A DNA stretch of 30,394 nucleotides from a virus. Shown piece after piece: positions 3,930 through 25,339 of the stretch. Numbering within the stretch: the stretch's first letter is position 1; each line of letters begins with the position of its first letter. The position numbers were made by a program, and so were the translations under genes. The notes under the pieces were generated by a model. The model was not told the origin of the DNA. It ran no database searches and saw only the letters and a list, made by a program, of their open reading frames with translations. The DNA lies in the IMG/VR virus record IMGVR_UViG_3300009068_000126, positions 1 to 30,394 of that record. One strand, 5' to 3'.

Positions 3930-4354
3930 TTGCTAATCTCCACCATCGCCACTTTCGGCAGGCGCATCGCGTTGAACTGTTTTTCGCTGGCAGCAAACAC
4001 GTCGATCACCGGCAACTTTCCACCGCTCGCCTTCTTGCTCTTAACGGCCGTGCCGGTATCCACAGCCACCCATTCACGCTTGGCACCGATGACGCGAATC
4101 CGTGACCACAGCGGAATGATGTCTGGATCCACGGCGCAGTGACGGCCTGCACGCAACTTGGTGCCAGTGCTCGACTGATATCGGCTCGACCACTCATCCT
4201 CACCCGGCCAATAGCCAGTGATACGCACCTTAATTTTCTTAACGTCGATCTTTTTGGCGTCCGGCCTCATATCAATCATCACGTTGGACGCCTGGGTGGC
4301 TGGGAACCCAAAGAACGCAAGAAACGTCAGCACTACGTTGCAAAGCGCTCTCAT
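3926..4354 (-). CDS. Secreted 3D-domain (MltA/RlpA-like) protein
   Basis: A 142-aa protein with a signal peptide (residues about 1-22, cleavage likely after ATQA). The mature part carries the 3D fold signature: AVDPDIIPLWSRIRV (about 75-89), VAVDTGTAVK (about 97-106) and PVIDVFAAS (about 113-121), with the conserved aspartates that give the fold its name. In MltA and related proteins this double-psi beta-barrel cleaves peptidoglycan by lytic transglycosylation. It would act in the periplasm. Its place among replication genes, far from the lysis genes, is unusual. The start overlaps the upstream microgene stop as ATGA. Catalysis in this protein is inferred. Confidence 0.8.
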   Translation of the reverse strand: MRALCNVVLTFLAFFGFPATQASNVMIDMRPDAKKIDVKKIKVRITGYWPGEDEWSSRYQSSTGTKLRAGRHCAVDPDIIPLWSRIRVIGAKREWVAVDTGTAVKSKKASGGKLPVIDVFAASEKQFNAMRLPKVAMVEISK

Positions 4355-4503
4355 AGTCCCGCCCTTATGCGATCAATCAGATCGTTCTCGCGCCCTTCCG
4401 CAGCAACCAGCGCAGCCTTCGCCTCCGCCAGCTCACGGGCCAACGAGCGCACGCGGTTCAGTAACTGCTCGTGCGTGGATTGTTCAGGCAGTACCTCAAT
4501 CAC
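4351..4503 (-). CDS. 50-aa coiled-coil microgene
   Basis: A 50-codon frame beginning with GTG (MIEVLPEQSTHEQLL...) 6 nt after a strong GGGAGG ribosome-binding sequence, inside the last codons of the exonuclease gene. It ends in an ATGA overlap with the 3D-domain gene. The product is an acidic/basic amphipathic helix (VRSLARELAEAKAALVAAE), a likely short coiled coil. Both the ribosome site and the overlap support expression. No family recognised. Confidence 0.65.
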   Translation of the reverse strand: MIEVLPEQSTHEQLLNRVRSLARELAEAKAALVAAEGRENDLIDRIRAGL

Positions 4504-5281
4504 AGCGCACCTCCCGCGGGTCGTACTTCTTCAGCCAGCGCCAAACCTTGCAGATGGATGTGAACGCCTCAAACGCCTGGGCAACTTGCTCGGCAGTGTA
4601 CTTGATGTCCTGTAGTTGGCCGGTGACTGGATCGATCAGAATGTTTCGGCACGTCATACCTTCGTCCGTAAATGCGTACGCGTAGGCGGACAGTTGGAGC
4701 AGATCGGTTTCATACCCGGTGGCTTTTGAGACGCCTTTTGCATCCGTCTTAAATTTGCGTGTCTTAAAATCCACCACCTCGATCTCGCCGTGAATGTCGC
4801 AAATCAAATCCACTCGCCCTGCGTAGCCTTCGGCCTCATTCACCAAAACGGCCTCATTAACGTGTACTTTTGAGACACAACATTCCCGCCACTCTTTCAG
4901 CCCCGCATAGTGTTCCTCATAGCCTTTGACCAAGTCGCCCGGATCCTCGCGATTGATGATGATTTCAGCCAGGGAATGAATGTGCGTCCCTCGGGCAGCA
5001 GCGGCCTCCACCTCCTTGCGGCTGTCCAACACCACACGCTTGGCAAAGTCATTGTCGGCCTCGCCTTCGTTCCGTGGTAGCGACAAGGCAGACAAGATCG
5101 CCTGCTCCTCTTTCCAATTTATCAGCCCTTGTTTGCTGGGCCCAGCAGCTCCGAGAATTGTGGTCACAGATGGGAACGCACCGACCTTGCGGGCGGATCG
5201 CAGATCACCGTGGCACGAATCCCCGCTTCGCAGATAATAGTGCGACGATTCCGCCTTTGCGGTTGCGATGATCGGGGCCAT
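4496..5281 (-). CDS. RecB/Cas4-like PD-(D/E)XK exonuclease
   Basis: About 261 aa from the ATG at 5281, which has GGAAGG upstream and overlaps the stop of a 31-aa microgene (TGATG). The nuclease core is visible in the second half: an Asp in GRVDLICD, then EVVDFKTRK (the D-x-K pair), followed by the Q-x3-Y motif LLQLSAYAYAF seen in RecB-family and lambda-exonuclease-like nucleases. An upstream HxxxE-like element sits in THIHSLAEI. It likely resects double-stranded ends for recombination or replication, together with the ssDNA-binding candidate encoded just upstream. A Cas4-type 4Fe-4S cysteine cluster is not evident. Confidence 0.8.
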   Translation of the reverse strand: MAPIIATAKAESSHYYLRSGDSCHGDLRSARKVGAFPSVTTILGAAGPSKQGLINWKEEQAILSALSLPRNEGEADNDFAKRVVLDSRKEVEAAAARGTHIHSLAEIIINREDPGDLVKGYEEHYAGLKEWRECCVSKVHVNEAVLVNEAEGYAGRVDLICDIHGEIEVVDFKTRKFKTDAKGVSKATGYETDLLQLSAYAYAFTDEGMTCRNILIDPVTGQLQDIKYTAEQVAQAFEAFTSICKVWRWLKKYDPREVRCD

Positions 5282-6981: not shown

Positions 6982-7220
6982 CGCTGGGCGCTCCACATCC
7001 GTGCGACGGACGGGTTAGGGTGATAAGCGGGCTCAGGTTCGTACCCGCCGCGAATTAAAAGCGAATGTTGTTGGTAGTGCTTCTTTTGAGGTTGATTAGT
7101 TACCGCCGTGTTACTATTTCGGCGTAAGTCAGTATAGTGATAAGTGTTGGCAGTGGAGGGATTTGAACCCCCGATTCTATTTCCCTCTACGTTTTGATTG
7201 ATTATGGTTGGAAGTGTCAT
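6978..7220 (-). CDS. Doubtful frame crossing the attP core
   Basis: An open frame of 80 codons from ATG 7220. Its first part (NVEGNRIGGSNPSTA) is simply the translation of the tRNA 3' end. The later part (RGGYEPEPAYHPNPSVARMW) looks more protein-like, and its stop overlaps the next ATG as ATGA, so something may be translated here. There is no clear ribosome site. If real, integration would swap its 5' end for host sequence. Confidence 0.2.
   Translation of the reverse strand: MTLPTIINQNVEGNRIGGSNPSTANTYHYTDLRRNSNTAVTNQPQKKHYQQHSLLIRGGYEPEPAYHPNPSVARMWSAQR
7101..7128. repeat. Inverted repeat beside attP
   Basis: TTACCGCCG at 7101-7109 pairs with CGGCGTAA at 7121-7128, with one bulged base and an 11-nt loop. 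It lies 20 bp outside the tRNA-derived core, on the replication-operon side. It lacks a T-tract. It could be an arm-type or accessory-protein site for recombination, or slow transcription entering from the host tRNA after integration. Confidence 0.4.
7148..7190 (-). other. attP core: 3' end of a tRNA gene
   Basis: Read on the minus strand, 7172-7156 gives a complete TpsiC arm (stem GGGGG / CCCTC with one G-U pair, loop TTCAAAT). It is followed by a 7-nt acceptor 3' strand CACTGCC (7155-7149) and an A discriminator at 7148, with no encoded CCA. No matching GGCAGTG 5' half or anticodon arm lies upstream, so this is only the 3' part of a tRNA, as expected for a phage attachment core that restores the host tRNA on integration. 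The integrase gene begins about 75 bp away. The outer limit near 7190 is a guess; the tRNA identity cannot be read. Confidence 0.8.
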
Positions 7221-7264
7221 TGTGATATCTTGCGTTAAACAGAGGAAATGTTACCCTTAATACC

Positions 7265-8362
7265 TTGGCTTATTCTTACATTAAAAGGGGAAGTCCTTGG
7301 TTTTTTATTCGTTCTAAAGATCCAATGGGTAAGTGGCGCAGTAAAGCCACCCGCTACCGAATCGACAACACGCTTCACCGCGCCAAGGCAACGGCCGAGG
7401 CGGCTCGAATCGGTGTGAACGAAAAGCGCAGAGATTGCGGCCACGAGTGGGTCGATGATTTGATCGAAAATCATCCCGTTTCCGCTCTGACAAAAATTTA
7501 TTACAGGAATTGCTGGCGTCATCTGGCGAGATTTATTAGTGAGAAAAAAATAACCCTGCAAGCGTTTTCTCCATCCGATTGTGAAATTTATTTGAAATGG
7601 CGCCAAAGCCTTACCCGCACGTCGGGCCGTAAGGCTGGACGCAACCAAGCGTGTGCGGATTTGAAGCTGCTCAAGTGGATTCACCGCCAAGGCCGACTGC
7701 TTGGGAAAATGGACTCCGTCGCCCTTCTGGATTACCGAATTAAAAGAAGCCCGATCGCACGCATCAAACCTGTTTTTTCGGATAATGAGATTAAAATCAC
7801 CCGGAAGGCTTTGGCCGTGGAAGGCATGCCCGAATGGATGCGAGTCAGCTTTGAGATCGCCCTGGCCACTGGCTGCCGACTCCGCGAGACCCAGATCCCG
7901 CTCGACTGCGTGGATCTCAAGAACCGAATCCTTACTTTCCCCACACCCAAAGGCGGATCCGGCAAATCGTTTAGCATCCCCATCCCGGCCGCCATCGAAC
8001 CCATGCTGGCCAGAATGAAGGCCGAGGGCCGCAAGATCACTTGCGAAGTCCCCCGCACGCGAGCCTCGCTTTGCTGGCGTCGCTTGCTGGATATATGCGG
8101 TCTTAAACGTCACTGCTTCCACTCCCTTCGGGTAACTCGTGTGACTCGATTGCGGCTTTCAGGCTGTTCTCAATCTGTCGCCATGCGACTCGTGAACCAC
8201 TCTTCGACGTTAGTGCATGAACTTTACCAGCGGCACTGCGTAGACGATCTCCGCGATGCAGTGAACTTAGGCCAGTCTGCATCAGCCTCCACCGATCAAA
8301 ATCAGACGGAATTACCTTTCCCGCGATCAGTGGGAATCCAGGCAACGCCTGCATTTGCTTGA
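7265..8362 (+). CDS. int: Tyrosine recombinase, phage integrase
   Basis: A 365-aa site-specific recombinase. The N-terminus (SYIKRGSPWFFIRSKDPMGKW) is the usual integrase arm-binding opening. A SAM-like core-binding domain spans about 65-155, and the catalytic domain about 165-330. The catalytic set is complete: R205 (ATGCRLRE), K229 in the beta-hairpin, H286-x-x-R289 (HSLR), H312 and nucleophile Y321 (HELYQRH). I kept the TTG start at 7265 because it gives the normal N-terminus; no in-frame ATG exists upstream, although the AGAGGAAA at 7241 is rather far. It acts at the adjacent tRNA-derived attP. Its last 260 bp are overlapped antisense by the excisionase-like gene. Confidence 0.93.
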   Translation: MAYSYIKRGSPWFFIRSKDPMGKWRSKATRYRIDNTLHRAKATAEAARIGVNEKRRDCGHEWVDDLIENHPVSALTKIYYRNCWRHLARFISEKKITLQAFSPSDCEIYLKWRQSLTRTSGRKAGRNQACADLKLLKWIHRQGRLLGKMDSVALLDYRIKRSPIARIKPVFSDNEIKITRKALAVEGMPEWMRVSFEIALATGCRLRETQIPLDCVDLKNRILTFPTPKGGSGKSFSIPIPAAIEPMLARMKAEGRKITCEVPRTRASLCWRRLLDICGLKRHCFHSLRVTRVTRLRLSGCSQSVAMRLVNHSSTLVHELYQRHCVDDLRDAVNLGQSASASTDQNQTELPFPRSVGIQATPAFA

Positions 8363-8468
8363 TACGGACATAACCGAACCCGTAAGCAGCGCCTAGCTGG
8401 CGAAGTGAAAGAGCTTGGTTCTTCTGACGAAGTTTCATGGCAGTATCGTTGAGGCGCCCCAAGCTCAT
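8103..8468 (-). CDS. Excisionase-like HTH protein
   Basis: A 121-aa protein. Residues about 12-60 (LRQKNQALSLRQLGAAYGF, then FPLIAGKVIPSDFDRWR) follow the winged-helix pattern of phage excisionases and AlpA-like regulators: an HTH, then FPx-x-GK, then a D-F-x-x-W closing motif. The basic C-terminal half is less ordered. It starts 7 bp after the stop of the RHH regulator at 8476-8637, so the two form a short operon. It overlaps the integrase 3' end on the opposite strand, including the codons for H286, R289, H312 and Y321. Likely role: bending att DNA and directing excision. A repressor role is possible. Confidence 0.65.
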   Translation of the reverse strand: MSLGRLNDTAMKLRQKNQALSLRQLGAAYGFGYVRIKQMQALPGFPLIAGKVIPSDFDRWRLMQTGLSSLHRGDRLRSAAGKVHALTSKSGSRVAWRQIENSLKAAIESHELPEGSGSSDV

Positions 8469-8475
8469 GGCGTAT

Positions 8476-8637
8476 CTAGCTTGGCTCTCCCGATGCTCTT
8501 GCGAGCAGTTGGGTGACGAGCTGGGAAAGTGAAATCCGACGGGCAGCGGCCAGTTTCTGTGCTGCCTTTTTCAAGGCAACAGGCAGGACTAGATTTGTCT
8601 TTTCTGCTTTGTTACCATTGAGACATCGGCGAGGCAT
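8476..8637 (-). CDS. Ribbon-helix-helix regulator A (53 aa)
   Basis: An ATG frame of 53 codons. The product has the CopG/Arc layout: an N-terminal strand TNLVLPV (residues 15-21) that would lie in the DNA major groove, then helix ALKKAAQKLAAARR, the turn ISLSQ, and helix LVTQLLARA. It diverges from a second RHH gene on the other strand, with inverted TACGCA/TGCGTA repeats between them, and precedes the excisionase-like gene. This places it as one side of a lysogeny switch, binding the intergenic repeats as a dimer. It lies in the position of a repressor or Cro; which one cannot be decided from sequence. Confidence 0.75.
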   Translation of the reverse strand: MPRRCLNGNKAEKTNLVLPVALKKAAQKLAAARRISLSQLVTQLLARASGEPS

Positions 8638-8647
8638 ACGCCTTGAC

Positions 8648-8664
8648 TACGCATAGTCTGCGTA
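8648..8664. promoter_or_regulatory. Operator-like inverted repeat O1
   Basis: TACGCA-N5-TGCGTA, perfect 6-bp half-sites, 11 bp upstream of the start of the leftward RHH gene. A further single half-site (ATACGC) overlaps that start at 8636. Its position suits autoregulation of the leftward RHH-excisionase operon. Confidence 0.6.
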
Positions 8665-8714: not shown

Positions 8715-8729
8715 GCGTATAAATTACGC
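8715..8729. promoter_or_regulatory. Operator-like inverted repeat O2 over a -10 box
   Basis: GCGTA-N5-TACGC, the same half-site in the opposite relative orientation to O1. It brackets a TATAAAT sequence (8718-8724) that is the best -10 candidate for the rightward RHH gene starting at 8745. Binding here would block that promoter. No strong -35 is visible. Confidence 0.55.
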
Positions 8730-8744
8730 ATACAATGTTCCCCT

Positions 8745-8888
8745 ATGAAAAAGGTGAAAACAAACCTTACGATCGACCCAAAGGTAAAACGCAACGGCGA
8801 GCGGCTGGCCAAGAAAGGCGGATTAAGTCTTTCCGCCTTTATCACGACTTTGCTCGTCAAAGAGCTGGCCAACGAAAAGAAACGCTAG
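8745..8888 (+). CDS. Ribbon-helix-helix regulator B (47 aa)
   Basis: A 47-codon gene with product MKKVKTNLTIDPKVKRNGER, then LAKKGGLSLSAFITTLLVKELANEKKR. The strand TNLTIDP, first helix, LSLSA turn and second helix match the RHH fold, and the TNLxxP and SLSxxxTxLL elements are shared with the divergent regulator A, suggesting that the two are distant paralogues. It is the only rightward gene besides the integrase. Its stop overlaps the stop of the convergent winged-helix gene (CTAG). Likely role: the opposing repressor of the switch. The ATG at 8745 is chosen over 8735 because only this frame gives an RHH protein. Confidence 0.75.
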   Translation: MKKVKTNLTIDPKVKRNGERLAKKGGLSLSAFITTLLVKELANEKKR

Positions 8889-14567: not shown

Positions 14568-14580
14568 TTAGGATGAGTAA

Positions 14581-14587
14581 GTGTCAA
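14581..14587 (-). promoter_or_regulatory. TTGACAC start-associated motif (copy 3)
   Basis: TTGACAC begins 20 nt before the ATG of the large fibre gene, just past the stop of the HAF-repeat gene. Confidence 0.5.
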
Positions 14588-14590
14588 TTA

Positions 14591-15634
14591 CTAGCCGATG
14601 CCGTAGGCTACTGTGGATGAACTGCCGGGCACAAATATATCGGTAAAGGTTGAGCCGTTGTAAAGGAAGCCACGGTTGGTTGCGCCGGTACTTACACCTC
14701 CAACAATGTTTGAACCATTAATTCCATAAGCAATTGTACCAATACTGCTAGGAACAAATATATCCGTAAAGGTTGAGCCGTTGTAAAGGAAGCCACGGTT
14801 GGTGGCCACCCCTCCAACAATGTTTGAACCATTAATTCCATAAGCAGTTGTACCAATACTGCTAGGATTAAATATATCCGTAAATGTTGAGCCATTGTAA
14901 AGGAAACCCCGAGCCACCCCGCCAATTCTTGCCGCACCAACAATGTTTGAACCATTAATTCCATAAGCAATTGTGCTGGTGCTACTGGGCACAGAAAATA
15001 TAGTATATGTTGAACCGTCGTAAAGAAAGCCACACCGAACTCCGTCGATACTTGTAGCTCCAACAATGTTTGAACCATCTATGCCGTAAGCCTGAGTAGA
15101 AGTACTGCCGGGCACGGATAATGTAGTATATGTTGAACCGTTGTAAAAAAAGCCTTTAGACCCGCCTATGTTTGCTGCTCCAACAATGTTTGGGCCATCT
15201 ATGCCGTTCGGATCGGTCGTAGTGCTACCGGGGACGAATATATCTGCATACGTTAAGCCGTCATAAACAAATCCCCGGCGTGTTGTGGGAAGCTCTGCGG
15301 AGCCAACAATTCTGTACGATTGAGTAATTGGCTGTGGCGTGCCAGCTCCACCCGTTCCCGTCCCGGCTCCACCCGTTCCAGTTCCAGCTCCACCGCTACC
15401 CGTGCCCGCACTTCCAGATTCAACTGGATTGCCAGCCCCGCCAGCAAGTGCTGTTAGATATGATACGCCTAGCCCGTTGCCCGCTTGCTCGACAAACATA
15501 TTAGAGCCAGCGACCATCTTATATCTAGAAAGTAAATCTGCCCCATACTCGGTGCGTTGGATTATGTGATTGATTAGGTTTGTGTCGAGGATCTTGCCGT
15601 CACGAATAGGACGGATGGGCGGGACGATTCGCAT
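14591..15634 (-). CDS. HAF-repeat tail adhesion protein with Gly-rich hinge
   Basis: 347 aa in three parts. Residues 1-65 (PPIRPIRDGKIL...LGVSYL) form a virion-attachment module shared with the next gene upstream. Residues about 70-98 are a Gly/Thr/Ala hinge built from a 7-residue repeat (GGAGTGT). The rest is six HAF-type repeats of 38-41 residues with core GFLYNGSTFTDIFVP and YGINGSNIVG. HAF repeats are seen in extracellular bacterial proteins and probably stack as beta blades. A host-binding function is inferred. The frame ends just after AYGIG, mid-repeat. Start TAATG overlaps the upstream stop. Confidence 0.75.
   Translation of the reverse strand: MRIVPPIRPIRDGKILDTNLINHIIQRTEYGADLLSRYKMVAGSNMFVEQAGNGLGVSYLTALAGGAGNPVESGSAGTGSGGAGTGTGGAGTGTGGAGTPQPITQSYRIVGSAELPTTRRGFVYDGLTYADIFVPGSTTTDPNGIDGPNIVGAANIGGSKGFFYNGSTYTTLSVPGSTSTQAYGIDGSNIVGATSIDGVRCGFLYDGSTYTIFSVPSSTSTIAYGINGSNIVGAARIGGVARGFLYNGSTFTDIFNPSSIGTTAYGINGSNIVGGVATNRGFLYNGSTFTDIFVPSSIGTIAYGINGSNIVGGVSTGATNRGFLYNGSTFTDIFVPGSSSTVAYGIG
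14643..15270. repeat. Six tandem DNA repeats of 114-123 bp
   Basis: The repeat core (GTAAAGGTTGAGCCGTTGTA on the plus strand in the closest copies) recurs at 14643, 14766, 14880, 15003, 15126 and 15246, so the spacings are 123, 114, 123, 123 and 120 bp, all multiples of three. The two leftmost copies are nearly identical in DNA; divergence rises to the right. This suggests recent duplication at the 3' end of the gene and possible length variation. Confidence 0.85.
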
Positions 15635-20377: not shown

Positions 20378-20992
20378 TCACCAGATCGGGCGAATGGACG
20401 GATCAAACGTGACCATGGTTTTACATCCAGCGCCACCATGCGGAAATGTTGGGGTGTAGTGGTATCGCTTGACGCAATCAGGCCAAGTCATCGTGGCCTT
20501 TCCTCTGGCTGCCTTCGGCGTATCCACGGATCGATCGTTATCCTCAATAATAAAGGTGCAGGGTAAATTTGCCCCAGCCACGTAGTTCACGGCCTCATAA
20601 AAATGGCCCTCATCCTCAGCTCCATCGCCCAAGAAGCACCACACTTTTGCCGAGCTTCCCTGCTCTTTTAATGTGTGCGCCACTCCGGCCGCTATCCCGC
20701 AAGTGCCAGCCAACACGCTTGACGTATAGAAATTGAGTTTACGGTCAAAGACAAACATGGAGCGACCCTCTCTAATTATCTGCTCGAGCACGTCAGGATC
20801 TCCGCCGGCGAGCAGATAGTGATAGTGGGATCTATGGCTTGAGAAGATCCAATCGCCTGGCTTAATGTCTTTAAATATCTCGATGAGCTGATCTTCATTC
20901 CCTCCACATAGGTGGATCAGATATGGCAGCTTGCCCTGTTCAAATAGCGCCTTAATGCGCAATTCAAAATCAATCAGATCCTGCTTGTTCAT
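20378..20992 (-). CDS. ThDP-dependent E1-alpha-like subunit (diphosphate-binding domain only)
   Basis: 204 aa. The E1-alpha hallmarks are present: FSSHRSHYHYLLAGGD (about 50-65, cofactor/substrate His region), AGTCGIAAGVAHTLKEQG (about 95-112), and the ThDP-magnesium motif from GDGAEDEGHFYEAVNYVAGA (about 122-141) through N152 (FIIEDND). Canonical E1-alpha proteins are about 320-400 aa; this one ends soon after the cofactor motif. It presumably pairs with the pyrimidine-domain protein encoded two genes upstream, with a radical SAM gene in between. Likely chemistry is decarboxylation or two-carbon transfer from a 2-oxo acid or ketose; the substrate is unknown. ATGA overlap with the radical SAM gene. 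Confidence 0.8.
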   Translation of the reverse strand: MNKQDLIDFELRIKALFEQGKLPYLIHLCGGNEDQLIEIFKDIKPGDWIFSSHRSHYHYLLAGGDPDVLEQIIREGRSMFVFDRKLNFYTSSVLAGTCGIAAGVAHTLKEQGSSAKVWCFLGDGAEDEGHFYEAVNYVAGANLPCTFIIEDNDRSVDTPKAARGKATMTWPDCVKRYHYTPTFPHGGAGCKTMVTFDPSIRPIW

Positions 20993-22080
20993 ACAAAGGC
21001 GTCGTGACTATCGGTGGCCAGCTTTTCAAACAGCGCCACCTTGGCGTGATTGGCACATTCATGCAGGCAACTAACGCCGGGGTTAAAGTTCTTGTGCCAT
21101 GCTTTCGCCTCTTCTCCGAACCATGCTTGGCTAAATGATTGATCCTTTATGGAAGCGATCCGGCCGTGATTGCTGTATGCGGTATTGTGGCATGCGTAGA
21201 CATTAAGATCCGCACCTACCACGCAAACGGCCTGAGCATAGAGACAGCGATGGAATGGCCGAACGGGCGACTTGCTTGGACTATCCAGATCGTAGGTCGT
21301 GTTAATGGTAAAATCTGAGTCGCAAAAGGATTGGCATTCTCCCAGTTGCTTGCGCACCGTGGTTGCAATCGTGTTGTGATATTCTTTAAAGTTCTGAACG
21401 TACACGGGAGAAAAGCGGACATTGCTTACGCCTGAATCTTTTAGCTGTTTAGCGAAAGGAACCAGCCCCTCGTAATTGTAGCGGGTAATTATAAAGTTAA
21501 TCCCAAGATCGCAGCTCTCCGTTTTCGTGTTAGAAAAGTTTTTAATATTCTGCATCACGGAATCAAACGATCTGTCGGGCACGTTACGGCTAGACGCCAT
21601 CTGCTCTGCGCTTGTGTAGTCCATCGAAATCCTGACCCACTTTGCCTTGCCCAATACTTCCGCCCTTTCCCCCGCAAGCAGTTGGCCGTTGGTAATAATG
21701 GATAGATCTAATCCAGACGAGACTGTCTTAGTCATAATCTCGACAATGTCTTTATGCAGCAAAGGCTCTCCGCCACCGCTAAAAGTGACGGCCTTTGTTC
21801 CCATACTTGAAAGATCTTCTATGAGTTCAAGTGCCTTATCTCGCGGCATGACGTCCCTCTCGTTCATGCTGGTGTGCATGCCAGCCTGTAGGTGCAAGTC
21901 AGGCCGATCCTTAGGACGAGTTGTGCCGTCAGAATAGACGCAGAAACGGCAGGCGTGGTTACAGATATTCGTCGGCTTAATTCGTACGTAGATGGGTGCG
22001 GTGATAATATCATCGCGAAAGCTGGCGATCTTATCCGGGAACGAAAAGATTTTGAGGTCGCTGTACTTGTTCTGCTTCAC
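20989..22080 (-). CDS. Radical SAM/SPASM-type enzyme
   Basis: 363 aa from the GTG at 22080 (GTGA overlap; another GTG is one codon earlier). The 4Fe-4S motif is CNHACRFC, C40-x3-C44-x2-C47, then FSGGGEPLLH (about 100-109, the SAM-binding GGE) and LSIITNGQL. The C-terminal part has a cysteine set (CLYAQAVCVVGADLNVYACHN...CLHECANH) and the H-x-R-I-x-S-I turn typical of SPASM/twitch extensions with auxiliary clusters. These enzymes use radical chemistry on sugars, peptides or cofactors. Flanked by the two ThDP enzyme halves, it probably acts on the same product, with glycans as the likely theme given the glycosyltransferases. Confidence 0.88.
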   Translation of the reverse strand: MKQNKYSDLKIFSFPDKIASFRDDIITAPIYVRIKPTNICNHACRFCVYSDGTTRPKDRPDLHLQAGMHTSMNERDVMPRDKALELIEDLSSMGTKAVTFSGGGEPLLHKDIVEIMTKTVSSGLDLSIITNGQLLAGERAEVLGKAKWVRISMDYTSAEQMASSRNVPDRSFDSVMQNIKNFSNTKTESCDLGINFIITRYNYEGLVPFAKQLKDSGVSNVRFSPVYVQNFKEYHNTIATTVRKQLGECQSFCDSDFTINTTYDLDSPSKSPVRPFHRCLYAQAVCVVGADLNVYACHNTAYSNHGRIASIKDQSFSQAWFGEEAKAWHKNFNPGVSCLHECANHAKVALFEKLATDSHDAFV

Positions 22081-22595
22081 CACTTATCCTTTCGCTCGAC
22101 CAGCGTAGTGGATGTCCCAGCGCTCAGTCTGTGCAGTGCGTTTTGATATTCGCTCACTACGCTCTCCTTCTTTAGTTCGACGATTGGGAAATCGATCATC
22201 TTCCTAAGAGCTTCGGTGAAGTCCTGCGTATGGGTTGGCCCCGTGTAGAGGGGTTTGCTTTTATTGCCTATGACTACCCGCAAGATGGCGGCAGGCTTGA
22301 ATTGATTGCAGCTAATATGCTGGGCTGCGCCTAGGTGATTCACGATAGCATCCAGTGCATTGAGAATAAAATCCATCCGCTCAATAAAGACGACGGGTTT
22401 TAGCCCGGCCAAACTCAGGCCCGTGGCTAGTCCTACCATCAGATTTTCAGCGACCGGCGTTTCGATCAGTTGTGAATCCGCAACATTATTAAGCGTGCCT
22501 GCTGCCCGGCCGCCTATCTTTACCCCGTAGCCTATGAACCTAACGGCTGGATCGGCCGCCAATAAATCCATCGCCTGCGTCAGCTCCCTCTTCAC
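22077..22595 (-). CDS. ThDP-dependent E1-beta-like subunit (pyrimidine-binding domain only)
   Basis: 172 aa. The pyrimidine-binding domain of E1-beta/transketolase proteins is clear: IETPVAENLMVGLATGLSLAGLKP (about 45-67) with E50 in the position of the catalytic glutamate that activates the cofactor, then VFIERMDFILNALDAIVNHLG. The C-terminal transketolase domain that usually follows is absent, so it is about half the usual 320 aa. It needs the diphosphate-domain subunit (20378-20992) for a complete active site. The start GTG overlaps the upstream stop as GTGA. Confidence 0.8.
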   Translation of the reverse strand: MKRELTQAMDLLAADPAVRFIGYGVKIGGRAAGTLNNVADSQLIETPVAENLMVGLATGLSLAGLKPVVFIERMDFILNALDAIVNHLGAAQHISCNQFKPAAILRVVIGNKSKPLYTGPTHTQDFTEALRKMIDFPIVELKKESVVSEYQNALHRLSAGTSTTLVERKDKW

Positions 22596-23356
22596 AGCAA
22601 CCCCTCCTCTTCAAGAATATGCAGGGCGTGAAATGCGCTTCTGGCCATCTGACCGCGTTCGGTAAAAATCACTGTCTCGGTATCTGCACACAGCAAGTGG
22701 AAGGCATTTTTGTTATGAACGTTTAGGCACGGCCAGCTCGGCCCGGTGGATGTTCCGATGACGGCTTTGGCCTTTGCAGCCGTCGCCCCGATCCAAGTCA
22801 CATTCTTGTTATCAAATGCCGGGCATAATCCAGTAGCGACTGTGCTAATTACGCGATGACCCTTGCTAACTAGCTTAGATATTAGGTTTCGAAAATCGTC
22901 GGAGTTAAAGTTTGTAAATTGTCCAGAAAGCCCTGGCGAATTTATCACGACAATGTCGCAGTCTGGCGCCATCGGAATAAAAGAATCTAGGGCTGGATAG
23001 TCAAACAGAAGATCGTCGACTTTCCGAATTGGATTCTTTACGCACATCCTGCTGGCCAGTTCCTCAAACCAGCATAGATGAAATTTGGCGAAGTTTAATT
23101 TGTCGGGGTGACGCTCCCAATATCCGCCTGCATTCCGCCATGAATCAATACTATCGGCAGGTGCTTGATCGATTGGCCTAATGTGTAGGCGTAAAGACAT
23201 ATCGCTTCGCAAGGCATCAATTTCCTCAAACCTGCACAGCTCTGGGTTGTGGTAGTGAGTTATCTCAAGATCTGGATTTTGCAGGCATAGCCGACGCAGA
23301 AAATTTAACTGCACTAGGTTGTCTCCTAGACGCAGTGCATTGTGCGTGTGAATCAC
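22592..23356 (-). CDS. GT-B glycosyltransferase, heptosyltransferase (GT9)-like
   Basis: 254 aa. The opening HNALRLGDNLVQLNFLRRLCLQNP matches the G-D-x2 start of ADP-heptose:LPS heptosyltransferases, and the region VIGTSTGPSWPCLNVHNK (about 203-220) corresponds to their nucleotide-sugar-binding loop near the C-terminus. It is shorter than canonical GT9 enzymes (about 320-350 aa). It probably adds a sugar to a lipopolysaccharide or virion glycan. Coupled at both ends by GTGA overlaps. Confidence 0.65.
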   Translation of the reverse strand: MIHTHNALRLGDNLVQLNFLRRLCLQNPDLEITHYHNPELCRFEEIDALRSDMSLRLHIRPIDQAPADSIDSWRNAGGYWERHPDKLNFAKFHLCWFEELASRMCVKNPIRKVDDLLFDYPALDSFIPMAPDCDIVVINSPGLSGQFTNFNSDDFRNLISKLVSKGHRVISTVATGLCPAFDNKNVTWIGATAAKAKAVIGTSTGPSWPCLNVHNKNAFHLLCADTETVIFTERGQMARSAFHALHILEEEGLL

Positions 23357-25038
23357 GGGTTGCGTTCCTTAAATATCTTTTCGCCCAGCTCGTAGTTCTC
23401 CTTGGCGTTGTGGCGCTTAAATTCCGCGTCCTGTGCTGCACCCGTGAAGAGAGGATTGTTGTGCGTAAAAACAACGTCCTTTGCGTCGATGATTACGCCG
23501 TCCCTTGCACCGCGTAAGCTGTACTCGTTATCGCTGAAAATGCCAGAGCATGCGTCGTACTCAGGCGCAAACAGAGTGCCCTGCTGTTTCAGCCTGGCCT
23601 TTGTTAAAATTGCTAGGCAAAGCAGATCGTCTTTGCGATGGCCGTCGGATACGGCAAGGATTGACGGCTTACTTAAATCGCCAAGCCGTTGCGTGATGAT
23701 TGTATCCCAATGCAACGGAGGATCCCAATCATCAGAGCCTTGAATGATAATTTCACCACGAGCTACTTCGGCCGCTCTGTTCCATGCAGCAACGCATCCA
23801 CCCTTGCCTTTAACGATTCCCCAATTTTTCAGCATGTCGGCTTTAGGGTCGTCATCGTCGACTGAGTAGATCCACTCGACTGACGCTGGATCTGCCGCCT
23901 TTTTCATCCACAAGATGCGGGCGTTGATGGCCTCTTGGGGGCGGCCTCGCGTGGCGTGGCAGATGGTAATCTTTACGGGCTTCTGCGCCCGCCACATGTT
24001 CTCAATCTTTTCTGCCTCGGCCGTATCGCCCACGGCTTTGCAGGCCGCTAGGTATAGATCGATGCATTCAAAGTCGTAGACGGTGCGCTGGGCGTTCCAG
24101 ATCTTCACGCCCGGATCGGGCTGAACCATAGCCGATTTTAGCAAGTGATAAGCCTGCAACCAGGCACCCACGCTCGCCTCTTCTCTGGCTAGAAAGTAAA
24201 TCGCCTCTCTGCGCCCGGGGTTCATCTGATGTGCCTTTTGGTATAGGCCGATCCTAACGGTGCGATCCTGCGTAGCCGTGGCCTGATTGCAGGCGGCTTC
24301 GTAAGCCAGCGTTGCCTCTTGTCCCGGCCAGACGGCCGCTACGTGTGACCAAGGCTCTGATTCCGTCCTGCGATTGCCTAAGAAAAGTTCCTGCTGATAG
24401 TAGTACGCATACTTGCCTGCTTCGCTTAACTGGCCCTGAAGGATGCGGAGATTCCGATCGGCGCTGTTTGGTTTATATCCGCCTGGGTGATGCTCTACCC
24501 ATACCGCCTGCTCGCCCACAGATTCTAGCCCAGCATTGGGCAACAGCGCCTCATGCACGGCATAATGCCACCTACCAGACCATGCGCCGTCTATACGCCT
24601 CACCATGCGCTCACGTACTGGCTTTAATTTGGCGTTTATAACGTCATAGACCCCTGCATAGATGCCGAGCTTGGGATTCTGCTCAAACGCTTCCACGCCC
24701 CTTTTAAGAGCGTTTTTGAGGTCTTTATGTGGCAAGTCATCGCAATCCACCCAAACCGCATAGTCTCCGGTGCATGCATCCAGTGCGGTGTTGCGGGCGG
24801 CGGCAAAGTTATCGACGTGGGGCCAGCTCGCCCCTGCGGGTGCATTTTTATATTCAACTATCTTTGCCCCTGACTTTTCAGCGATCGCCCGCGTGCCGTC
24901 ATCGGGTCGGCCGCCTTGGGCAATGCAGACGACCAGCTCGTCGCAGTATGGCTTAAAGGCGGTAAGGCAACGGTCGATAAATTGGGCCTCGTGCCCGGCG
25001 ATTGCGTAGATTGATATTTTAGGATTTCGAGTGGCCAT
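23353..25038 (-). CDS. Two-domain GT-A glycosyltransferase with TPR-like middle
   Basis: 561 aa from ATG 25038 (GAGAGG 8 nt upstream); an upstream in-frame start at 25086 would overlap the previous gene. Domain 1 (about 6-235) is GT2: ISIYAIAGHEAQFIDRCL, ending its Rossmann part in VWVDCDD (DxD-type, 96-101). Residues about 240-350 are helical repeats of TPR type (LAYEAACNQA..., YFLAREEASVGAWLQAYHLLKSA). Domain 2 (about 355-561) is another GT-A fold: ITICHATRGRP, YSVDDDDPK (391-399) and GSDDWDPP (434-441). Both acid motifs look intact, so two sugars could be transferred in turn. First gene of the cassette. Confidence 0.82.
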   Translation of the reverse strand: MATRNPKISIYAIAGHEAQFIDRCLTAFKPYCDELVVCIAQGGRPDDGTRAIAEKSGAKIVEYKNAPAGASWPHVDNFAAARNTALDACTGDYAVWVDCDDLPHKDLKNALKRGVEAFEQNPKLGIYAGVYDVINAKLKPVRERMVRRIDGAWSGRWHYAVHEALLPNAGLESVGEQAVWVEHHPGGYKPNSADRNLRILQGQLSEAGKYAYYYQQELFLGNRRTESEPWSHVAAVWPGQEATLAYEAACNQATATQDRTVRIGLYQKAHQMNPGRREAIYFLAREEASVGAWLQAYHLLKSAMVQPDPGVKIWNAQRTVYDFECIDLYLAACKAVGDTAEAEKIENMWRAQKPVKITICHATRGRPQEAINARILWMKKAADPASVEWIYSVDDDDPKADMLKNWGIVKGKGGCVAAWNRAAEVARGEIIIQGSDDWDPPLHWDTIITQRLGDLSKPSILAVSDGHRKDDLLCLAILTKARLKQQGTLFAPEYDACSGIFSDNEYSLRGARDGVIIDAKDVVFTHNNPLFTGAAQDAEFKRHNAKENYELGEKIFKERNP

Positions 25039-25039
25039 T

Positions 25040-25339
25040 CTAAACCTCTCGCAACCCGAGCACGTAACTGCCGATAGAAGTATCAATCGAGGCCACCCGA
25101 TAGCTGACTGAGTTGGCCAGCAAGATAGATCCGATGGTGGGCGCCGATGAGATGGCGCTCACGTCGATGGTAAAGGTGGAGTTTAGATCCAGATCAAAGC
25201 CGCCCAGCTCCACGCTTTCTTTGCGGGTGATCGTCGAAAGGATACCAGTGACGCCAGTAGAACCAATGGTGGCCGCTGTGCCAGTTTGAGTATAAAGAGC
25301 GGCTAGACTTTCTTTTAACGCTTCTGTGAATTCAGACAT
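25040..25339 (-). CDS. Head-tail completion protein candidate
   Basis: 99 aa. An N-terminal helix (EFTEALKESLAALYTQTG) is followed by beta strands (FDLDLNSTFTIDVSAI, SILLANSVSYRVASIDTS) with the look of lambda FII-like or related small head-completion proteins. It stands right after the coat protein gene and its hairpin, where such proteins are encoded. The next gene starts 1 bp after its stop codon. Confidence 0.55.
   Translation of the reverse strand: MSEFTEALKESLAALYTQTGTAATIGSTGVTGILSTITRKESVELGGFDLDLNSTFTIDVSAISSAPTIGSILLANSVSYRVASIDTSIGSYVLGLREV

Follow-up and report, generated by a model that had tools for sequence, protein, structure and literature searches.

A tyrosine integrase gene and a putative excisionase gene with a conserved 260 bp tail-to-tail overlap, apparently selected in both frames, in a virus and its relatives

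Long antiparallel overlaps between genes are usually dismissed as annotation errors. In the accessible text of the survey by Palleja et al. (2008), 968 overlaps longer than 60 bp were examined and no co-directional or divergent one was accepted, while 54 of the 178 convergent overlaps were regarded as possibly true, most of them conserved only in very close species (PMC2478687). Antisense overlapping genes of the laoB type are as a rule young ORFs that lie within an older gene (PMC7457138). Regarding phage integration modules, the accessible parts of one source describe int and xis of lambda as co-transcribed upon induction, whereas in KplE1/HK620 and P2/186 int and the gene of the recombination directionality factor (RDF) are on separate transcripts, and the int promoter region of KplE1 overlaps the att region (PMC2951348). 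Two further sources, each accessible in part, state that the C-terminus of lambda Xis serves cooperativity with Int (PMC4880445) and that the Xis of Gifsy-1 likewise has a flexible tail (PMC2603039).

The locus described here, shared by a family of uncultured phages, lies in a virus record of 30,394 bases, the whole of which is referred to as the window. It resembles the lambda int/xis, TorI (KplE1) and Apl (186) modules in having a tyrosine integrase, a small predicted winged-HTH factor, an attP-like site flanked by repeats and a C-terminal tail on the putative Xis; no sequence similarity to a lambda-type int/xis module or to Xis was detected. The lambda genes are co-transcribed according to the portions of the literature cited above, whereas here the two genes run towards each other and have 260 bp in common, read in opposite frames. 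With KplE1/HK620 and P2/186 the locus would share the uncoupling of int and RDF transcription, and with KplE1 an int promoter region that overlaps the att region, but no int/RDF coding overlap is described for those phages in the accessible text (PMC2951348). Like the convergent overlaps in the available part of the Palleja survey, this one is tail-to-tail and longer than 60 bp, but it is retained down to integrase identities of ~52-56%, and selection is seen in both frames. As in laoB and other bacterial antisense overlapping genes (PMC7457138), a single DNA stretch encodes two proteins, one per strand; here, however, both partners have conserved cores and their ends alone interpenetrate. A literature search, with most subscription papers beyond its reach, found no published int/xis pair encoded in antiparallel dual frames. 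The dual-coded pair is deeply conserved.

The sequence-only reading of this DNA had claimed that the two genes share about 260 bp on opposite strands, catalytic codons of the integrase included, and the ORF coordinates bear this out (Table 1). Within the overlap are the codons of H286 (8120-8122), R289 (8129-8131), H312 (8198-8200) and Y321 (8225-8227). Position 1 of the int codons is opposite position 1 of the xis codons and int position 3 is opposite xis position 2, so that every third-position change silent in int alters the xis-like protein. Coverage of the H286 and R289 codons applies to the clade of the window; in distant clades the xis-like gene terminates at the R289 equivalent or close to it, and the equivalents of H312 and Y321 are still covered.

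Table 1. Coordinates of the overlapping genes, their subdivisions and the neighbouring elements in the window.
Feature	Position	Strand or length	Remarks
GTTAC repeat pair to the left of the core, spacing 11 bp	7099-7114	+	Candidate Int arm-type or Xis sites
attP-like core (tRNA gene 3' end)	7148-7180	-	tRNA nature judged from sequence
GTTAC repeat, second copy degenerate	7250-7264	+	Abuts the int start codon; candidate arm site
int, tyrosine integrase	7265-8362	+	365 aa, TTG start
xis-like gene	8103-8468	-	121 aa; predicted winged-HTH core (residues ~3-75) and tail antisense to the int catalytic domain
Convergent antiparallel overlap	8103-8362	260 bp	int/xis-like, tail-to-tail; register from coordinates
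int-constrained part of the overlap	8103-8272		xis-like tail stop-free, with a few fixed residues
xis-like tail motif W96..I99...L103	8160-8183	-	Residues 96-103; W96 also kept in distant clades
xis-core-constrained part of the overlap	8273-8362		int third positions frozen, first and second variable
RHH1, small CopG/Arc-like ribbon-helix-helix ORF	8476-8637	-	63/63 relatives
RHH2, divergent Arc-like ribbon-helix-helix ORF	8745-8888	+	63/63 relatives

The int product matched the integrase profile phrog_1 (E 4e-28) and PF00589 (E 4.6e-6; 27.0 bits, slightly below the 27.1 cut-off). Its catalytic residues R205, H286, R289, H312 and Y321, which form the tyrosine recombinase pattern R...HxxR...H...Y, were invariant in 16 of 16 sequences of one alignment (A1) and in 12 of 12 of another (A4). 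Start codons among the 64 full-length int genes, including that of the window, were ATG (52), TTG (8) and GTG (4). A tRNA 3'-end signature, as in attP sites of the tRNA type, is located 106-107 bp from the int start in all 66 relatives with enough sequence, while ARAGORN detected no whole tRNA at the attP-like core. GTTAC repeats are present on both sides of the core and are replaced by TTGCTACG in distant clades; judged from these sequences, they behave as expected of arm-type or Xis sites. Within one integrase clade the core itself (alignment A6) is of two or more tRNA types: among its six most frequent forms, which account for 65 of 66 loci, the GGACGGGGTGGG type is present in 60 loci and the GGCAGTGGAGGG type in 5.

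Relatives were collected using short peptide patterns, one of which itself lies inside the overlap; int patterns from outside the overlap gave the same picture. The resulting 72 loci, one per contig and including the window, comprised 67 with both gene ends readable (five were dropped because of contig ends), and they provided 64 full-length int genes, 60 of them distinct, and 62 distinct xis-like sequences. The overlap was kept in all 67 measurable loci; it measures 260 bp in 45 of them and 263 bp in the other 22, the longer form having one additional codon in both int and the xis-like gene. In lineages with an integrase only ~52-56% identical (L179-L183, L262, L263, L264 and L260), the small gene is also antisense to int and in the same register, although in L260, a contig of a Verrucomicrobia MAG, the register could be followed only as far as the contig extends. 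Where mapped, the xis-like stop of the distant clades corresponds to int codons ~288-291 of the window, and these clades are without the last ~10 residues of the tail. The earlier reading had named relatives with a xis frame shortened to end before int as evidence that would count against it; no such relative was found among the close and distant lineages carrying both genes.

One locus, L174 (77% identity in the best segment), keeps int and the tRNA att site (4001-5074), and both the xis-like gene and RHH1 are absent from it. In the int tree, L174 is sister to the clade of 60 sequences (support 0.62 for the 60 sequences and 0.97 for the 60 plus L174) and xis-bearing clades fall outside, so the loss of the small gene in L174 is the simpler history. 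Two 34-kb contigs, L191 and L192, match only int residues 62-129, around position 4001-4204. From their sequences, these three loci resemble stages on the way to a loss of lysogeny or excision.

Several lines of evidence bear on whether the antisense frame is itself selected. The xis register is stop-free across the overlap in all 60 distinct int sequences, while each of the remaining two antisense registers is open in none of them, and upstream of the overlap the xis register contains 9-20 stops per sequence in 280 codons. When int codons were shuffled silently at their upstream frequencies, the tail stayed open with an average probability of 0.007 per sequence, a value that must not be multiplied across sequences because the relatives are not independent. 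Considering only stop-risk columns, at which the int amino acids permit an antisense stop, 8 of 8 were stop-free in the overlap versus 11 of 42 upstream (Fisher p = 1.4e-4). The four valine codons that precede an A are exclusively GTA or GTG, never GTT or GTC, in the 60 sequences; L174, which has no small gene, uses GTC at V290, V310 and V333, producing three stops in the xis register. The column test and L174, the latter a single sequence, constitute the sturdier evidence for selection on the antisense frame.

Codon choice in int points in the same direction. L316 is encoded by TTA or CTA in 59 of 60 sequences, codons used at only 2 of 1434 upstream leucines, and S299 by TCA in 49 of the 50 serines at this position, compared with 4 of 963 upstream serines; other fixed codons are GCC at A306 (59/60), CAA at Q303 (60/60) and TCG at S314 (59/60). 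The choices at L316, S299, A306, Q303 and S314 set L86, L103, W96, I99 and S88, respectively, of the xis-like protein. In a distant clade (L179-L183 and L262), GCA, CAA and GCC are found at the corresponding int places in 6 of 6 sequences, and L264 has a different int sequence there, yet the antisense strand still reads Trp. The only relative without W96, L103 and L86 of the tail is L002, in which the frame is still open. In this relative (L002:506-1603), 17 of the 49 silent differences from the window are clustered in int codons 281-320, a burst that suggests a recombined patch. Across the dataset, both frames are conserved with fixed ends and selection is visible in each, as expected of dual coding, and the comparison indicates that both readings of the overlap are real and held by selection. 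A protein ending near residue 65, which had also been named as evidence against the earlier reading, is argued against by the stop avoidance and the conserved tail motif.

That the overlap constrains the evolution of both proteins, as had been proposed, is supported by the stop-free columns, the fixed codons and the fourfold-site divergence, and by these measures the constraint is uneven, with int dominating 8103-8272 and the xis-like gene 8273-8362. At fourfold sites, int divergence falls from 0.41 upstream to 0.35 in the stretch facing the xis tail and 0.14 in that facing the xis core; at int positions 1 and 2 the corresponding values are 0.078, 0.044 and 0.19. This pattern implies that the xis-like protein governs the second part, where the last ~30 int residues drift, and that int governs the first, where the xis-like tail evolves fast. 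The open tail of int is only weakly remarkable (0.15). In a synonymous-site check, suggested together with the original claim, int fourfold sites are slow over the xis core, but third-position change over the tail is not reduced (10.4 changes per site in the tail-coding stretch vs 8.4 upstream). Frozen columns are likewise no commoner in this stretch (6 of 54) than upstream (28 of 195, by hand count). The amino-acid constraint on the tail is therefore local; a generally frozen tail was rejected, since third-position change is as high there as upstream.

No family match for the small protein was found in Pfam, PHROG, NCBIfam or PDB sequences. RDFs are very diverse in sequence, and a missing family match therefore does not exclude that the protein is one. 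AlphaFold2 predicts a winged-HTH core consisting of HTH, hairpin and helix (pLDDT ~90 over residues 11-60), followed by a tail that is disordered apart from a helix of low confidence at 94-110. Foldseek gave no confident PDB or BFVD match for the small protein (all E > 0.08). The gene is encoded beside int and the attP-like site (67 measurable loci; att signature in 66/66), but this linkage says little about identity, since the overlap forces it. RHH1 shares the strand of the xis-like gene in 63/63 relatives, and a gap of 5-7 nt (16 in one) separates its stop from the xis-like ATG. Between the divergent RHH genes are the palindromes TACGCATAGTCTGCGTA (8648-8664) and GCGTATAAATTACGC (8715-8729), which resemble operators belonging to a small genetic switch. 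The xis-like core also has a stand-alone relative, in a Verrucomicrobiota genome (L274:1432-1788, minus strand); no int overlap was seen there, and its tail is without the W motif. The small protein is probably a phage recombination directionality factor (Xis).

The explanation we find rather likely is that int and the xis-like gene are two genuine genes with a fixed ~260 bp tail-to-tail overlap, both readings of which are selected, and that the small protein acts as Xis at attP. According to the sequence comparison, the xis-like core dictates the last ~30 residues of int, and the final ~55 residues of the xis-like protein, encoded opposite the int catalytic codons, must be free of stops and retain a few hydrophobic positions. 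Xis would act with Int at the tRNA attP directly upstream of int, and it would be produced from the leftward RHH1-xis operon in the lytic direction, with Int produced from its own rightward promoter inside attP in the lysogenic direction. The antisense-coded tail would most likely help Xis to cooperate on DNA, either with Int or among Xis molecules. A comparable role is reported for lambda, where the C-terminal tail of Xis is reportedly needed for Int cooperativity, to go by the title of Numrych's 1992 paper. Leftward transcription, if strong, should also reduce int output, given that the genes run into each other, either as a by-product or as a second layer of control; the built-in antagonism proposed by the sequence-only reading, as mutual interference by colliding transcription, is plausible. 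A version in which the tail is the Int-contacting segment itself, written on the catalytic codons of int, so that the two proteins are sequence-locked, linked and also switched by colliding transcription, seems to us quite unlikely. If it were true, the enzyme and its controller would be locked in sequence and stay linked as one unit.

Other explanations differ in which part of this account they dispute. It is very improbable that the antisense ORF beyond residue ~65 is only a chance open frame. That an antisense frame is open proves nothing by itself: a different antisense register of int lacks stops over 286 codons in 59 of 60 sequences for no other reason than the rarity of TTA, CTA and TCA. 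The xis register, however, is full of stops upstream, opens only across the overlap and is closed in L174, and for the window clade a chance ORF was rejected on the 0.007 open chance, the 8/8 columns, the rare codons and the L174 stops. Alternatively, genome compression may have merged the genes by stop loss, leaving them inseparable with a tail that is merely harmless, and stop avoidance would then reflect truncation damage or RNA effects. This would fit the lower mean pairwise identity of the tail (residues 66-121; 0.61 versus 0.83 in the core), its varying length between clades, the freely drifting int tail (positions 1 and 2) and an int stop codon that the amino acids of the xis-like protein mostly dictate (p 0.90). 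We nevertheless hold compression to be rather unlikely, considering that W96 is conserved in 7 of 7 aligned distant sequences and 61 of 62 close ones, that rare int codons are fixed to give leucines in the xis-like protein, and that stops are avoided even inside the last 10-14 xis-like residues in 60 of 60 sequences.

The overlap may instead be mainly regulatory, with convergent transcription making int and xis expression mutually exclusive and serving as an integration/excision switch, an idea we consider possible though doubtful. The convergent arrangement is fixed in all measurable relatives, the RHH1-xis operon is separate from int's own promoter region, and other phages (KplE1, 186/P2) uncouple int and RDF transcription according to the accessible text of PMC2951348. 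Interference, however, needs neither stop-free dual coding nor a fixed W/I/L motif, and a shorter overlap would suffice for it. No conserved terminator was found in the overlap (a consensus scan gave 4 sites vs 2.9 expected, near chance) and no conserved RNA structure (RNAalifold covariation term only -1.0), and a promoter consensus scan was at chance (1 site vs 1.7 expected). With a probability that we would also put as low, the small gene may encode another winged-HTH DNA-binding protein, such as a transcription factor or packaging-like adaptor, that abuts int by chance. The top VIA-align matches, although weak, are packaging-related winged HTHs (6hn7, Z 7.0; 7lw0, Z 6.2), followed by a Rex repressor (Z 4.8), with MerR regulators also among the matches; there is no family match, and L174 keeps int and attP without the small gene. 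Against this, the gene is beside int and attP in phages, and its size and predicted fold fit known RDFs; mycobacteriophage Pukovnik Xis (4j2n, Z 4.7, rmsd 2.8, 49 aligned) and TorI (1z4h, Z 3.5) are among the weak matches. Direct repeats spaced 11 bp at the att core resemble the Apl RDF sites in the accessible part of PMC7498355, but these GTTAC / TTGCTACG repeats could equally be Int arm sites.

That both readings are kept by selection is unusual for an overlap of such length. Both partners look like standard phage-module genes, and their overlap is deeply conserved. Since annotation pipelines tend to drop such overlaps, they may miss directionality factors beside integrases. The relatives include a natural control for loss (L174) and allow a readout at the codon level, making this a clean case in which to measure the co-evolution of two proteins on one DNA stretch.

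Among 50,697 named phage records, no relatives were found for the window int (E 1e-5) or for the xis-like protein (E 1), and a distant int matched only remote integrases (8 records, <60% identity). The host clue consists of one 3.4 kb Verrucomicrobia MAG contig (L260), and the small protein was matched in 2 of 387 genomes of the Verrucomicrobia phylum; this is weak evidence for a Verrucomicrobia host.

The open antisense register mentioned above corresponds in the window to a 295-aa ORF on the minus strand (7235-8122), open in 59/60 relatives over int codons 1-286. It was rejected as a gene, the near absence of TTA, CTA and TCA codons explaining the open frame, and it serves as a caution for ORF-based claims. 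Elsewhere in the window, ORFs on the minus strand at 20378-25086, which we take to resemble parts of a TPP-dependent dehydrogenase, a radical-SAM protein and a glycosyltransferase, sit among phage genes. At 14571-15277 there are six diverged copies of a 104-nt repeat with a spacing of 114-123 nt, mostly within a minus-strand ORF (14591-15634).
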